DNA from: Halolamina litorea
Lineage (GTDB): Archaea; Halobacteriota; Halobacteria; Halobacteriales; Haloferacaceae
Direction: 5' to 3'
Assembly (NCBI RefSeq): GCF_026616205.1
Contig: NZ_JANHGR010000001.1
Location: 744,001 to 808,000, forward strand
Length of the DNA stretch: 64,000 bases
The first letter of the stretch is position 1. Each line of letters opens with the position of its first letter. Positions 12,851-19,284 of the stretch are shown one piece after another. The position numbers were made by a program, and so were the translations under genes. Under the pieces are notes generated by a model. It was not told the origin of the DNA and did no database searches. It saw nothing but the letters and a program-made list of their open reading frames with translations.

Positions 12851-14074
12851 ATGTGGCAAAACGGCGAGGGTGGGAACGAGCCGGAGTGGCGTACAGTCGA
12901 GACCGAGTTCAACATCAACCTCTTCGGGACGGTACAGACCGTCGAAGGGCCCTACGCGGTCGGTGAGGGTGGACATCTCGTCGCCGACCGTGGGGATGGC
13001 TGGGAGGTAATCTTCGACGACGGCCCGTCGACGCGGCAAAACCAACTGCGCGCGATGGACGTGACCGACGACGGCAAGCGGGTCTGGATGGTCGGCTCCT
13101 CGGGGGCGATGGCGTGTTACGACGTGGAGGAGCGCAAGAAGTTCGACTACTCCTACCCCAACGAGATGACCTCGACGTGGGAGGCTATCGCCGTCTGTGG
13201 CGACCGGGGTAACGAGAAGGTGCTCGCCGCGAACGGCTCCGGCGAGGTGCTGCCGTTCATCATCAGCGGCTACGACGTGAACTGGGAGCCGATGTCCAAG
13301 CCCGCCGGGAAGGGCTCGAACGTCGCCGCGCTGGCGGCGACGCCCGACGGCGTCGGCTTCGCCGTCGACACCTCCGGGAACGCGTTCAAGACGACGCCGG
13401 AGGGCTGGGAGGACATCGGCGTCGTCAACGCTCAGGTGAAGTTCTACGACGTCTACGCCGGCGAGAACGAGGAGGTGTACATCGCAGCCGGCGACGGCCG
13501 GGTCTACCGCTACGACGACTCCTACAACGACTGGACGCCCATCGGCGTCACCGACGAGACGTCGATGCGCTCCATCGACGTCTACGAGCAGGACGGCGAG
13601 CGACAGATGGTCGTGCTGGGGAACAACGGCAGCGTCTTCCAGCGCGACGACGGCGACCGGTGGGAGGAGATCCCCTCGCCCACAAGCGCCGCGCTGTTCG
13701 ACCTGAGCCTCGGTTCGCCCGACATCGCCGTCGGGAAGGCCGGCACGGTCATCGAGCGACCACGCGGCACCACCCGCGACGCCGGCAGTTCGCCCGACGG
13801 CGACGAGTTCGACGGTCGAGGCGAGAACGACGACGGTGACCAGTACGGGAGCGACGAGGACGGCTCCACGTCCGAAAACGGCACGACCGACGGGACGGCT
13901 GGCGACGACCCGACGGAAGACGACACGGCCGACGACACCACCGAGGACGAGCAGACGGCCGACGACGAGGAGTCACGCTCCGACGAGGAGATCATCGCGG
14001 AGATCGTCGACCTGCTGCAGGAACTCAGCGACGGCGACGATGACGACCTGTCGCTGTCGGACCTGTTCTCGTAA
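12851..14074 (+). CDS. cytosolic beta-propeller-like repeat protein, copy 1
   Basis: 407 residues. Residues 10-305 are a chain of roughly 45-residue beta-rich units with recurring phrases such as GPYAVGEGGHLVAD, KRVWMVGSSGAMACYD, EKVLAANGSGEVLPF, GVGFAVDTSGNAFKT, EVYIAAGDGRVYRYDD and QMVVLGNNGSVFQ, the look of a six- or seven-bladed propeller. Residues 310-375 are an acidic disordered linker and the end is a short helix plus a DDDLSLSDLFS tail. There is no signal peptide or membrane segment. A close paralogue lies 770 bases downstream beyond an antisense FUN14 gene. Function unknown; the fold suggests a protein-interaction platform. Confidence 0.8.
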   Translation: MWQNGEGGNEPEWRTVETEFNINLFGTVQTVEGPYAVGEGGHLVADRGDGWEVIFDDGPSTRQNQLRAMDVTDDGKRVWMVGSSGAMACYDVEERKKFDYSYPNEMTSTWEAIAVCGDRGNEKVLAANGSGEVLPFIISGYDVNWEPMSKPAGKGSNVAALAATPDGVGFAVDTSGNAFKTTPEGWEDIGVVNAQVKFYDVYAGENEEVYIAAGDGRVYRYDDSYNDWTPIGVTDETSMRSIDVYEQDGERQMVVLGNNGSVFQRDDGDRWEEIPSPTSAALFDLSLGSPDIAVGKAGTVIERPRGTTRDAGSSPDGDEFDGRGENDDGDQYGSDEDGSTSENGTTDGTAGDDPTEDDTADDTTEDEQTADDEESRSDEEIIAEIVDLLQELSDGDDDDLSLSDLFS

Positions 14075-14775: not shown

Positions 14776-14844
14776 TCGAGGGGCGTTCGATATCTGACCA
14801 TCAGCGGAGGACTTTTCACCGCGAGTACAGTACGACGGGTGACT

Positions 14845-16116
14845 ATGTGGGATACGGGTGCGGGTACGCGAGAGCCGGCGTGGGAACCGGCCGAGACCGA
14901 GTTCGAGATCGACCTGTTCGACGTGGTTCACACCGTCGAGGGGCCGTACGCGGTCGGCGCCAGCGGGACGCTGGTCGCCGACACCGGCTCGGGCTGGGAC
15001 GTCGTCTTCGACGACGGCCCCGCGACGCGGGAGGCACAGCTACAGGCCGCCGACGTGACCGCCGACGGCCGGCGGGTCTGGATGGTCGGGACCTCCGGCG
15101 TCGTCGCGTGTTACGACGTGGAACAGGCACGGAAGTTCGACTACTCCTCCCCCGACGGGATGACCTCGACGTGGGAGGGCGTCGCCGTCGCCGGCCGGAA
15201 GGGTCGGGAGAAAGTTCTCGCGGCGAACGGTTCCGGGGAGGTCCTGCCGTTCCTCGTCGACGGCTTCGAGATCGATTGGGGCCAACCCCGCAAGCCCGCG
15301 GGCAAGGGGGCGAACGTCGCTGCGCTCGCGGCCAGCCCCGACGGCGTCGGCTACGCGATCGACACCGCGGGCAACGCGTTCAAGACGACCCAGCGGGAGG
15401 GCTGGGCCGAGATCGGTATCCTCGACTCCCAACTCAAGCTTCACGACATCCACGCCGGGGCGAACGGGCGTGTCTACGTCGCCGCCGGCGACGGCAACGT
15501 CTACCGCTACGACGACTCCTACGAGAGTTGGACCCCCATCGGGGTCACCGACGGGATCGCCCTGCGGGCCATCGACGTCGCGGTGTACGAGAACGGCACC
15601 GGCGAGATGGTCGTGGTCGGCGACGACGGCTCCCTCTACGAACGGGTCGGCGACGAGCGCTGGGTCAAACAGCCCACCCCCGTCGATGCGACGCTCCACG
15701 GTCTCAGCGTGGGCGACCTCGATGTGGCGGTCGGCACGGGCGGGACCGTGCTCGAACGCCCACAGTCGACCCGCTACGACCGGAGTTCGGCAGACGGGGA
15801 CACCTACGACGGCCGCGGCGAGACCTACGACGAACCGACCGACCGTCGGCGGACGGCCGATGCCGACGACGCCGCCGACGGGAGCGACAGCGAGGACGGG
15901 GACGCGGTGGGCGACGGCGACGACGCCAGCGACCTCACGACCGGCGAAGTGCTCGTCGTGCTCGCCGACGAACTGGACATCGAGGAACTCTCCTCGGCGG
16001 CGGGCTACAACACGACCGAGATCCAGCAGCGCCTGATCGAACTGGCCGACGAGGTCGGTGTCGACCCCACGCGGGTCCGCAGTGCGCTGGCCACCGACGG
16101 CGGGAACGACTCGTAA
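14845..16116 (+). CDS. cytosolic beta-propeller-like repeat protein, copy 2
   Basis: 423 residues from the ATG at 14845, chosen because it aligns with the start of copy 1 (MWDTGAGTREPAWEP against MWQNGEGGNEPEWRT); a GTG six bases earlier is possible. Residues 10-310 align nearly without gaps to copy 1, with identical blocks such as EKVLAANGSGEVLPF and YRYDDSY. The tail differs: an acidic linker is followed by a helical segment VLVVLADELDIEELSSAAGY and TEIQQRLIELADEVGVDPTR, which resembles a small helical or winged-helix module. Shared core and divergent tails suggest duplication then specialisation. Confidence 0.8.
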   Translation: MWDTGAGTREPAWEPAETEFEIDLFDVVHTVEGPYAVGASGTLVADTGSGWDVVFDDGPATREAQLQAADVTADGRRVWMVGTSGVVACYDVEQARKFDYSSPDGMTSTWEGVAVAGRKGREKVLAANGSGEVLPFLVDGFEIDWGQPRKPAGKGANVAALAASPDGVGYAIDTAGNAFKTTQREGWAEIGILDSQLKLHDIHAGANGRVYVAAGDGNVYRYDDSYESWTPIGVTDGIALRAIDVAVYENGTGEMVVVGDDGSLYERVGDERWVKQPTPVDATLHGLSVGDLDVAVGTGGTVLERPQSTRYDRSSADGDTYDGRGETYDEPTDRRRTADADDAADGSDSEDGDAVGDGDDASDLTTGEVLVVLADELDIEELSSAAGYNTTEIQQRLIELADEVGVDPTRVRSALATDGGNDS

Positions 16117-16236: not shown

Positions 16237-17163
16237 ATGAAGCAGTGGGTCCGCAGCCAGCTTACCCGGGCCTATGAGCGCCTCCTCCGCCGCGAGGGCG
16301 AGGGGGGGCCCTCACACGTCGCCATCATTCAGGACGGGAACCGCCGCTACGCCCGCGAGCGCGGCGATGACGCCACCGACGGCTACGACGCCGGCGCCCG
16401 AACCACCGAGCAGGTGCTGGAGTGGTGTCAGGACATCGGAGTGAAGGAGCTCACCCTCTACGCGTTCTCGACGGAGAACTTCAAGCGCCCGCCCGAGCAG
16501 CGCGAGAAGCTCTACGACCTGTTGGAGGACAAACTCCGCGGTATCGCCGACAACGAACGCATCCACGAGAACGGGGTCGCCATCCGCGCGATCGGCGAGA
16601 CCGACCGGCTCCCCGAGCGCGTCCGCGAGGCCATCGACTACGCCGAGGGCCGAACCGCCGACTACGACTCGTTCCGGCTCAACGTCGCGCTGGCCTACGG
16701 CGGCCGGAACGAACTGCTCCGGGCCGCACGCGACGTGCTCGACGACGTGGCTGCCGGCGACCTCGATCCGGCGGGGATCGACACCGACCTCGTCGACGAA
16801 CGCCTCTACGGCCGGGAAGTCAGGGACGTGGACCTCATCATCCGCACCGGTGGCGACGAGCGCACCTCGAACTTCCTCCCGTGGCACGCCAACGGCAACG
16901 AGGCCGCGGCGTACTTCTGTGCGCCCTACTGGCCGGAGTTCTCGAAGATCGACTTCCTGCGGGGGATTCGCACCTACCAGTCACGCGAGCGCTCCTGGCA
17001 GCGCACCCGGAGCGACCGCGCGGCCGCCATCGTGCGCGCCGTCGCCGAGACCGAACTCGCCGAGGCCAGAACCGTCGCCGGCCGGCTCCGGGAGAAACTG
17101 CCCGGGGCGGCCCCGGAACTGGACGCTGAACTGGACGCCCGGGGAACCGAGTCGGCCGACTGA
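16237..17163 (+). CDS. uppS: cis-prenyltransferase (polyprenyl diphosphate synthase), catalytic-type subunit
   Basis: 308 residues. The catalytic loop D33-G-N-R-R (HVAIIQDGNRRYA), AFSTENFKRP, the NVALAYGGRNE block and RTGGDERTSNFLPWHANGNEAAAYF are all present. The enzyme condenses IPP in cis to build the long polyprenyl (dolichyl-type) lipid carrier at the membrane. Where canonical enzymes end with an R-x-G motif (RRFG) after the final YQ/FQ segment, this one reads YQSRERSWQRTRSD and continues about 50 residues with an extra helix. It is convergent, 36 bases apart, with a second cis-prenyltransferase that has the opposite motif pattern. Confidence 0.9.
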   Translation: MKQWVRSQLTRAYERLLRREGEGGPSHVAIIQDGNRRYARERGDDATDGYDAGARTTEQVLEWCQDIGVKELTLYAFSTENFKRPPEQREKLYDLLEDKLRGIADNERIHENGVAIRAIGETDRLPERVREAIDYAEGRTADYDSFRLNVALAYGGRNELLRAARDVLDDVAAGDLDPAGIDTDLVDERLYGREVRDVDLIIRTGGDERTSNFLPWHANGNEAAAYFCAPYWPEFSKIDFLRGIRTYQSRERSWQRTRSDRAAAIVRAVAETELAEARTVAGRLREKLPGAAPELDAELDARGTESAD

Positions 17164-17199
17164 CTCCGGTCGGCGACGATCGCCGATCCGGACCACTTC

Positions 17200-17808
17200 T
17201 CACTCCCCGAACCGTCGCTGCCGGTCCTCGAACTCCCGGACCGCCCGCAGGTAGTCGCGCTTGCGGAAGTCACGCCAGTTCACGTCGGTGAAGTAGAGCT
17301 CCGAGTAGGTCGACTGCCAGATGAGGAAATCCGAGAGCCGTTCGGCCCCGGTCTTGATGAGCAGGTCTGGCTCCTCCGGGAAGACGAGGTGGTCGGTGAC
17401 GGTATCCTCGTCCACGTCCTCGGGGTCGAGGTCGCCGGCGGCCACGTCCTCGGCCATCTCTCGGACCGCGCGGGCGAACTCCCCGCGACCGCCGAGGCCG
17501 ACGTTGATCCGGATGGGGGCGTCGGCGCGCTCGGCGTCGTCGGGGCCGCGGACCGCGATCTCCCGGGGGGCGTCGATGGCTCTGAGTTCGCGGATCAGCG
17601 TCGGGACGACCGCCTCGTCGAGCACCGACACCGAGACGGTGACGCGGTCGGCGCCGTAGTCGAACGCCCAGCCGAGCGTTCGCTCGAGGGTCTCGTAGGC
17701 ACCCTGTTCGAGCAGGTCGCGCTCGGTCAGCACCAGCGCGACGTGGTCGGGGCCGTCGGCGTCGGCGAGGCGGTGGCGGAGGGCGAGATAGGCGTCGTAC
17801 GCTCCCAC
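17200..17808 (-). CDS. cis-prenyltransferase homologue lacking the catalytic Asp loop (NgBR-like)
   Basis: 202 residues, probably from the GTG at 17808 (VGAYDAYLALRHRL); the frame is open far upstream over the antisense DUF92 gene, which is an artefact. The fold is that of UppS (GWAFDYGADRVTVSVSVLDE, RINVGLGGRGE, LLIKTGAERLSDFLIWQSTYSELYFTDVNWRDF), but the segment where D-G-N-R-R should be reads VALVLTERDL, so the catalytic Asp and phosphate loop are gone. It does keep the C-terminal R199-x-G201 (RRFGE). This is the pattern of the accessory subunit of heteromeric cis-prenyltransferases. Divergent from the DUF92 gene. Confidence 0.85.
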   Translation of the reverse strand: MGAYDAYLALRHRLADADGPDHVALVLTERDLLEQGAYETLERTLGWAFDYGADRVTVSVSVLDEAVVPTLIRELRAIDAPREIAVRGPDDAERADAPIRINVGLGGRGEFARAVREMAEDVAAGDLDPEDVDEDTVTDHLVFPEEPDLLIKTGAERLSDFLIWQSTYSELYFTDVNWRDFRKRDYLRAVREFEDRQRRFGE

Positions 17809-17934: not shown

Positions 17935-19284
17935 GTGAACCGGACGCTCAAGCGCGACGGCGGGTTCGCGCTGGTTTCCCTGCTCGCGCTCGCCGCGCCG
18001 TTGTTCGGGGCGGCAACGGCGCTGCCGTTCCTCGCCATCGCCGGCGTCGCGGCGTTCCTCATCGACGAGGGGCCCGTCTTCGAACTGTTCGCCCGGCCGC
18101 GTGACTGGCAGGCCGGGCGGCTCTACGGCCTCGCGGCGTTCGCGCTGTCGGCGGCCGTGCTCTCCTTTCTCTCGATGCCGCCGGTCACGGCGACCTACAC
18201 CATGCCGCTGCCGTCGTTCGCCGCCAGCGTCGTCACCGTCGGCGTCGGCACGCTCGGGGCTACCTTCGCCCGCGAGTACGTCGACGAGCCGTTCCTGATC
18301 CTCTCGGCGTTCGCCGTGGTGGGGTTCTTCGCGGCGCTGCTGGCACAGCTGACGGTCGTCGCACTCGGGGCGACGCCGCTCTCCATCGTCGCCGTCGCGC
18401 CCGTCAGCCTGCCGACGCTGACGTTCCACGCCGCGCTGGCGGCGCTCGTCGGCGCGCTCACCCGATCGCTGCTCGCCGCCGACGACCGCGCCGCGGTGGC
18501 GTTCGCCGTCGGGGCGACGATGCTCGTCGTCGGCGCGCTCTCGGAGCCGGTCCACGTCCTCGACGTGGGCCTCGCACTCGGCGTCGCGCTCCTGCTCGGC
18601 GGGATCACCTACGCCACCGGCACCGCCTCGGTGGAGGGGATGCTTTCGGGCGTGTTGCTCTGTCTGGTCACCATCGTCCTCGGCGGGCCGGGCTGGTTCG
18701 CGCTCCTGCTCACCTTCTTCGGCGTCGGCACGCTCTCGACGAAGTTCCGCTACGAGCACAAAGCCGACCGCGGCGTCGCCGAGGAGAACGAGGGCGCCCG
18801 GGGGCTCGGCAACGTCCTCGGTAACGCCGGCGTGGCGCTGTTGGCCGTCGTCGGCTTCGCGGCCGCGGGCGACCTCCCGATCGGCGGAACGCTGTTCGCG
18901 GTCGCGTTCGCCGGGTCGCTGGCGACGGCGATGGGCGACACGCTGTCGAGCGAGATCGGTGGGCTGTTCGACACCCCGCGGCTGGTCACCTCCGGCAAGC
19001 GCGTCCCGCCCGGCACCGACGGCGCCGTGACGTGGCAGGGCGAACTCGCCGGCCTCGTCGGCGCCGCGGCCGTCGGTGGGCTGGCGACGCTGCTGCTCGA
19101 CGTGGGCCAGGACCCGCTGCTCGTCGTCGGCATCGTCGCCGGCGGCGGGTTCGTCGGTATGACCGCCGACAGCGCGCTCGGCGCCACCGTCGAGGGCGAC
19201 GTGGTCGAAAACGAGACCGTGAACCTCCTCGCGACGCTGACGGGCGCGCTCGCAGCCGTCGTCCTGTTCGTGCTGGTCGCGTGA
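17935..19284 (+). CDS. DUF92 family membrane protein, possible isoprenoid-phosphate kinase
   Basis: 449 residues, GTG start at 17935, with about 12 hydrophobic helices. The C-terminal half has the DUF92 signature: FFGVGTLSTKFRYEHKADRGVAEE, GARGLGNVLGNAGVA, SLATAMGDTLSSEIGGLF and a region ending GGFVGMTADSALGATVEG. DUF92 includes plant VTE6, which phosphorylates phytyl phosphate using CTP. The neighbouring cis-prenyltransferase pair makes an inferred role in polyprenyl-phosphate metabolism attractive here. The stop overlaps the GTG of the next gene by four bases, so the two are coupled. Confidence 0.85.
   Translation: MNRTLKRDGGFALVSLLALAAPLFGAATALPFLAIAGVAAFLIDEGPVFELFARPRDWQAGRLYGLAAFALSAAVLSFLSMPPVTATYTMPLPSFAASVVTVGVGTLGATFAREYVDEPFLILSAFAVVGFFAALLAQLTVVALGATPLSIVAVAPVSLPTLTFHAALAALVGALTRSLLAADDRAAVAFAVGATMLVVGALSEPVHVLDVGLALGVALLLGGITYATGTASVEGMLSGVLLCLVTIVLGGPGWFALLLTFFGVGTLSTKFRYEHKADRGVAEENEGARGLGNVLGNAGVALLAVVGFAAAGDLPIGGTLFAVAFAGSLATAMGDTLSSEIGGLFDTPRLVTSGKRVPPGTDGAVTWQGELAGLVGAAAVGGLATLLLDVGQDPLLVVGIVAGGGFVGMTADSALGATVEGDVVENETVNLLATLTGALAAVVLFVLVA

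Follow-up and report, generated by a model that had tools for sequence, protein, structure and literature searches.

Why does a haloarchaeon carry two cis-prenyltransferase genes next to each other, each coding for a protein that lacks a part of the active site which its neighbour keeps? The question is raised by a locus in the window analysed here, which is the whole stretch of 64,000 nucleotides from Halolamina litorea. The gene for the catalytic-type subunit, P1 (308 amino acids), is located at 16237..17163 on the plus strand and was defined by its open reading frame and translation and by its matches to PF01255 (9.6e-69) and TIGR00055 (1e-69). The gene for the non-catalytic, cis-prenyltransferase-like subunit, P2 (202 amino acids; 17200..17808, minus strand), was defined by its open reading frame, by PF01255 and by a P2 profile, A1; it runs from a GTG at 17808 to the stop codon at 17200-17202. 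This frame is open far upstream of 17808, to beyond 19000 on the minus strand, in DNA of high G+C content, and the placement of the GTG start therefore rests on conservation only. The genes are convergent, tail to tail, with 36 bp between the stop codons, and thus do not form one transcript. A hairpin in the gap (17165..17192) is a possible two-way terminator and is weakly better than shuffled sequences (z -1.9).

P1 and P2 are the only PF01255 proteins encoded by the whole genome, and both score above the curated Pfam cut-off of 27 bits. P1 scores 231.7 bits over positions 1-217 of the 219 in the profile, the match stopping there since the last positions, the RxG motif, are missing. P2 scores 94.2 bits (1.1e-26) over positions 115-219; its strongly diverged first half gives no score, and the RxG end is kept. 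To follow these motifs we used 94 P1 and 76 P2 sequences drawn from across the phylum Halobacteriota; it should be noted that the sequences are related, and that the motif counts given in the following are not independent events.

The first-pass annotation stated that P1 keeps D33-G-N-R-R and has RSWQ in place of RRFG, and the translation agrees. The DGNRR loop for Mg2+ and allylic diphosphate (D33-R37; 16333..16347, plus strand) is kept in all 94 P1 sequences and equals D34, R37 and R38 of human DHDDS (PMC7573591). RSWQ is found at 16990..17001 (plus strand), in a C-terminal region which reads ...YQSRERSWQRTRSD... where homodimeric enzymes have RRFG, and none of the 94 sequences contains R[RK][FYW]G. 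Ten of eleven catalytic or substrate-binding sites are invariant in the 94 sequences (D33, G34, N35, R36, R37, N81, R84, R203, R209 and S211), and the eleventh, E80, is found in 93. The counterparts of the conserved residues in human DHDDS bind substrates or Mg2+ or contact the tail of NgBR (PMC7573591).

A second change in P1 concerns the linker which joins the SNF motif to the strand that follows (F213-F227, FLPWHANGNEAAAYF; 16873..16917, plus strand). It exceeds the linker of homodimeric enzymes by two residues and has GNEAA for YSEL. In 91 of the 94 P1 sequences its length is 15 residues, with GNE or a similar sequence, against 13 residues in 74 of 76 P2 and in 25 of 25 Thermoproteota sequences; the 13-residue form with YSEL is the one found in P2, in Thermoproteota and in most others. 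The linker of P2 (F161-F173, FLIWQSTYSELYF; 17290..17328, minus strand) is of this ancestral type, with Y168 and E170 each kept in 75 of 76. Three early-branching P1 proteins have the old linker length, with YSEL and RxG already gone. In human DHDDS the strand-to-strand linker which apparently corresponds is part of the subunit interface (PMC7573591), and the change in P1 may for this reason disfavour P1 homodimers. P1 ends with an extension (residues 256-308; 17002..17160, plus strand) which is predicted to be helical, with low confidence (pLDDT < 50).

P2 had been described as having VALVLTERDL for DGNRR and a terminal RRFGE, 36 bases from P1, which is confirmed: residues 23-32 read VALVLTERDL. 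DGN is absent from all 76 P2 sequences. The part of this stretch at the loop position is TERDLL (T28-L33; 17710..17727, minus strand), and in 39 haloarchaeal P2 sequences E29, D31, L32 and L33 are invariant, T28 and R30 nearly so. We considered TERDLL as a new catalytic loop and rejected it, since the motif is not kept in the other families of the phylum; a lineage-specific structural role seems likelier. The terminal R199-F-G201-E202 (17203..17214, minus strand) is of another kind. The glycine is found in 76 of 76 sequences and the arginine in 75, the remaining one ending in KFG, and in 75 of the 76 exactly one residue follows RxG. In the structure of NgBR, the C-terminal carboxylate of the residue following this glycine contacts catalytic arginines of DHDDS (PMC7573591), and a fixed tail length is therefore what a tail acting in trans predicts. 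In the most reduced P2 proteins, of which we noted four examples, the C-terminal half and the RxG end are nearly all that can still be recognised.

The complementary pattern is not one of chance or of local decay, because it recurs in the 94 P1 and 76 P2 sequences across the phylum. P2 could be thought of as a decaying pseudogene copy beside a working gene; it evolves fast, is short and sits on long branches in the trees. Yet the frame stays open throughout a phylum and the terminal motif is invariant. In a decaying gene one motif would not survive in 76 sequences, and conservation already refutes this reading, to which we give virtually no probability. Hardly better is the idea that the two proteins are enzymes independent of each other, with products of different chain lengths. 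They share fold and family, but the catalytic loop is absent from every P2 sequence and the first half of P2 falls below the Pfam profile.

The reading which we prefer, with a probability of about 0.9, is that the locus encodes a heteromeric cis-prenyltransferase with P1 as its catalytic and P2 as its accessory subunit; the enzyme would supply the polyprenyl diphosphate from which archaea form their glycan carrier, dolichyl phosphate. We infer that the two proteins form a physical complex in which P1 would bind allylic diphosphate, Mg2+ and isopentenyl diphosphate through D33, R36, R37, R84, R203, R209 and S211. P1 would have no tail to close the site of a partner, and P2 would have no working site of its own. 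The C terminus of P2, R199-x-G201 plus one residue, would cross the dimer interface and complete the site of P1, as that of NgBR does for DHDDS. The genome encodes an oligosaccharyltransferase of the STT3/AglB type, for which a dolichyl phosphate carrier would be expected.

If the two proteins depend on each other they should be found together, and the first-pass annotation had proposed to look for co-occurrence across Halobacteria and for genomes in which one partner persists with the same motif loss. PF01255 genes are present in all 292 Halobacteria: exactly two in 281 genomes, three in eight, four in two and one in a single genome. Profile A1 matches 292 of 292, a count to be read with the reservation that the profile also picks up P1-type proteins and that sequence checks of the exact partner cover only the fetched loci. 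The genome with a single copy, G072, retains P2, and the P1 flanks of a genus mate map to the ends of two of its contigs (C75 and C22), from which it follows that the orphan is due to an assembly gap over P1; with this explained, both genes are found throughout Halobacteria. Extra copies can occur as a second P1/P2 pair. Four matches are found in G194, within two loci, and in G225, within three; those of G194 make up two P1/P2 pairs, one of which is tandem and not tail to tail, and in G225 three of the four copies are of the P1 type.

Outside the haloarchaea, 116 of 124 genomes of Halobacteriota have two or more copies, two have one and six have none. The two single-copy genomes are incomplete drafts. 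Five of the six genomes without either gene belong to one family, from which both are thus absent together, and P1 or P2 persisting alone with its motif loss was not found in any well-assembled Halobacteriota genome examined. The five genomes of that family have no recognisable cis-prenyltransferase of either type; a different lipid carrier, a strongly diverged enzyme or a partner organism may serve them instead. The prediction of a haloarchaeal two-subunit synthase is in this way supported by motifs and co-occurrence, and it can be widened: the split pair extends through nearly all of the phylum Halobacteriota and is special neither to this locus nor to Halobacteria. In Thermoproteota one copy is the rule (116 of 121 genomes), and each of the 25 sequences examined, mostly from Thermoproteota, has both the catalytic loop and RxG. 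Collecting homologues by sequence pattern gave mostly DPANN, Thermoproteota and Clostridia.

Among 52 fetched loci with both genes, 51 have them tail to tail and one in the same orientation, and the distance between the stop codons varies from an overlap of 186 bp to a gap of 2.8 kb. In three loci the convergent frames run into each other at the 3' end, and L142 has the longest overlap, 186 bp. The tail-to-tail arrangement is probably old, because it is found in haloarchaea as well as in other families. In haloarchaea, roughly one in three of the P1 loci fetched has no P2 within about 3.5 kb. A more constant neighbour of P2 than P1 is a divergent gene for a DUF92 membrane protein of 449 amino acids (17935..19284, plus strand; PF01940, 3.8e-54), which adjoins P2 in nearly every haloarchaeal locus fetched. 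A link between this type of protein, arCOG02245, and uppS has already been published, with a kinase step proposed (PMC5898192), and the DUF92 protein, as a proposed isoprenoid kinase, is a candidate polyprenyl phosphate enzyme. On the other side of P1 the window contains two adjacent, clearly similar proteins (12851-14074 and 14839-16116), probably a tandem duplicate; the second has a weak Tachylectin-like match below the cut-off.

The constancy of the DUF92 neighbour bears on another explanation, in which P1 is active alone as a homodimer and P2 has a separate role, e.g. as regulator of isoprenoid flux or as partner of the DUF92 protein. There is a precedent in MM_0014 of Methanosarcina mazei, an active homodimer which ends in TLGG and has no RxG (PMC8131916). 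Yeast Nus1 also lacks the canonical RxG motif (PMC7573591), and RxG is thus not indispensable in every cis-prenyltransferase. However, MM_0014 has a terminal glycine and the linker tyrosine, and P1 has neither; an RxG end plus one residue, the best-kept feature of P2, would not be required in a free regulator. No well-assembled genome has P1 alone, and the corresponding Methanosarcina pair is reported as heteromeric (PMC8131916). We regard a self-sufficient P1 as very unlikely and continue with the heteromeric enzyme.

Structural comparison was made with single-chain AlphaFold models. That of P1 is of modest confidence (pLDDT 64.0); that of P2 is better (79.6), with a poorly predicted tail (about 51 in the last block), and neither shows where the tail goes. 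The P1 model matches solved members of the family with Z 22-26, human DHDDS being the top match (Z 26.1, rmsd 6.2, 282 residues aligned) with homodimeric enzymes within one Z unit. The P2 model gives Z 13-14.6, about equal for homodimeric types (14.6) and NgBR (13.7, rmsd 4.2, 178 residues aligned). As far as such models go, the matches confirm the cis-prenyltransferase fold and do not speak to the complex. Both Foldseek and sequence searches placed bacterial UppS above NgBR for P2, so the likeness to NgBR is one of function more than of close kinship.

In the trees P1 forms one clade (support 92/88) and P2 another (100/100), which fits an old duplication with complementary loss. The simplest account would be that an archaeal enzyme with both motifs was duplicated once, no later than the base of Halobacteriota, and that each copy then lost the half which the other kept. 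P1 and P2 together as one clade are neither rejected nor supported (AU p 0.35). With P1 and DHDDS as one clade the log likelihood is 2.1 lower (AU p 0.395), a test which contains one eukaryotic sequence only. If the splits in Halobacteriota and in eukaryotic DHDDS/NgBR went back to a single event in an ancestral archaeon, humans would have inherited their disease-linked enzyme as a heteromer from archaea, and it would not be a separate invention; we consider such a common origin unlikely. A further group, MM_0014-type enzymes with ITLGG ends, was seen in seven loci; these enzymes are common to some Halobacteriota and Clostridia, form one clade and were likely transferred between domains.

Judging from the distribution, cis-prenyltransferases of two subunits are the rule in a whole archaeal phylum and not a eukaryotic speciality with one methanogen as exception. 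The duplicates would have lost complementary halves of an active site to which both sides of a dimer interface contribute, which would make them a clear example of a function partitioned after duplication. Annotation of both genes as undecaprenyl diphosphate synthase would mislead for P2, which is predicted from its motifs to be inactive alone. Haloarchaea are easy to grow and to modify genetically, and the pair has no membrane-anchored partner; the tail-donor mechanism and its effect on chain length can therefore be tested there. We found no paper on the haloarchaeal pair in the literature searched, which covered few subscription journals. This kind of enzyme has already been shown in one methanogen and in humans, and the haloarchaeal pair is a well-supported further case of it.

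The closest known system is that of M. mazei, in the same phylum as H. litorea, from which Emi et al. reportedly described the heteromeric cis-prenyltransferase MM_0618/MM_1083 in 2019. M. mazei has three cis-prenyltransferase paralogues, and PMC8131916, citing its ref. 13, reports MM_0618/MM_1083 as a heteromer making C45-50 products, thought to supply the glycosyl carrier. The Methanosarcina members fall inside our clades, one in P1 and one in P2. One Methanosarcina genome (G397) has a near-identical orthologue of MM_0014 (3e-138) together with one P1 and one P2, and by elimination MM_0618 and MM_1083 are then of the P1 and P2 types; at the level of sequence they appear to correspond to P1 and P2 as orthologues, the match of the locus tags being by elimination. 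The Methanosarcina genes lie far apart, about 865 kb in another genome of the genus (G408), whereas they are tail to tail here.

The proposed likeness to DHDDS/NgBR and to archaeal heteromers is supported both by these orthologues and by the complementary motifs: in the human pair, too, one subunit has the loop without RxG and the other RxG plus one residue without the loop. The activity of the human complex exceeds that of DHDDS alone about 400-fold (PMC7573591). P1 aligns with DHDDS over 4-289, and the helical C-terminal extension of DHDDS, a helix-turn-helix (PMC7573591), parallels the one predicted for P1; DHDDS does not have the two-residue linker insertion of P1. P2 starts directly at the cis-prenyltransferase domain, which leaves no room for the N-terminal transmembrane part of NgBR. 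Yeast Rer2/Nus1 is grouped with DHDDS/NgBR as a comparable split. The homodimeric UppS of bacteria and Thermoproteota is of the same family and fold, has catalytic loop and RxG in each chain, and would be the ancestral type which supplied the motif sets of both P1 and P2. The MM_0014-type enzymes, finally, resemble P1 in belonging to PF01255 and in missing RxG, but they form a separate clade (100% support), are homodimeric and have no P2-like partner of their own.
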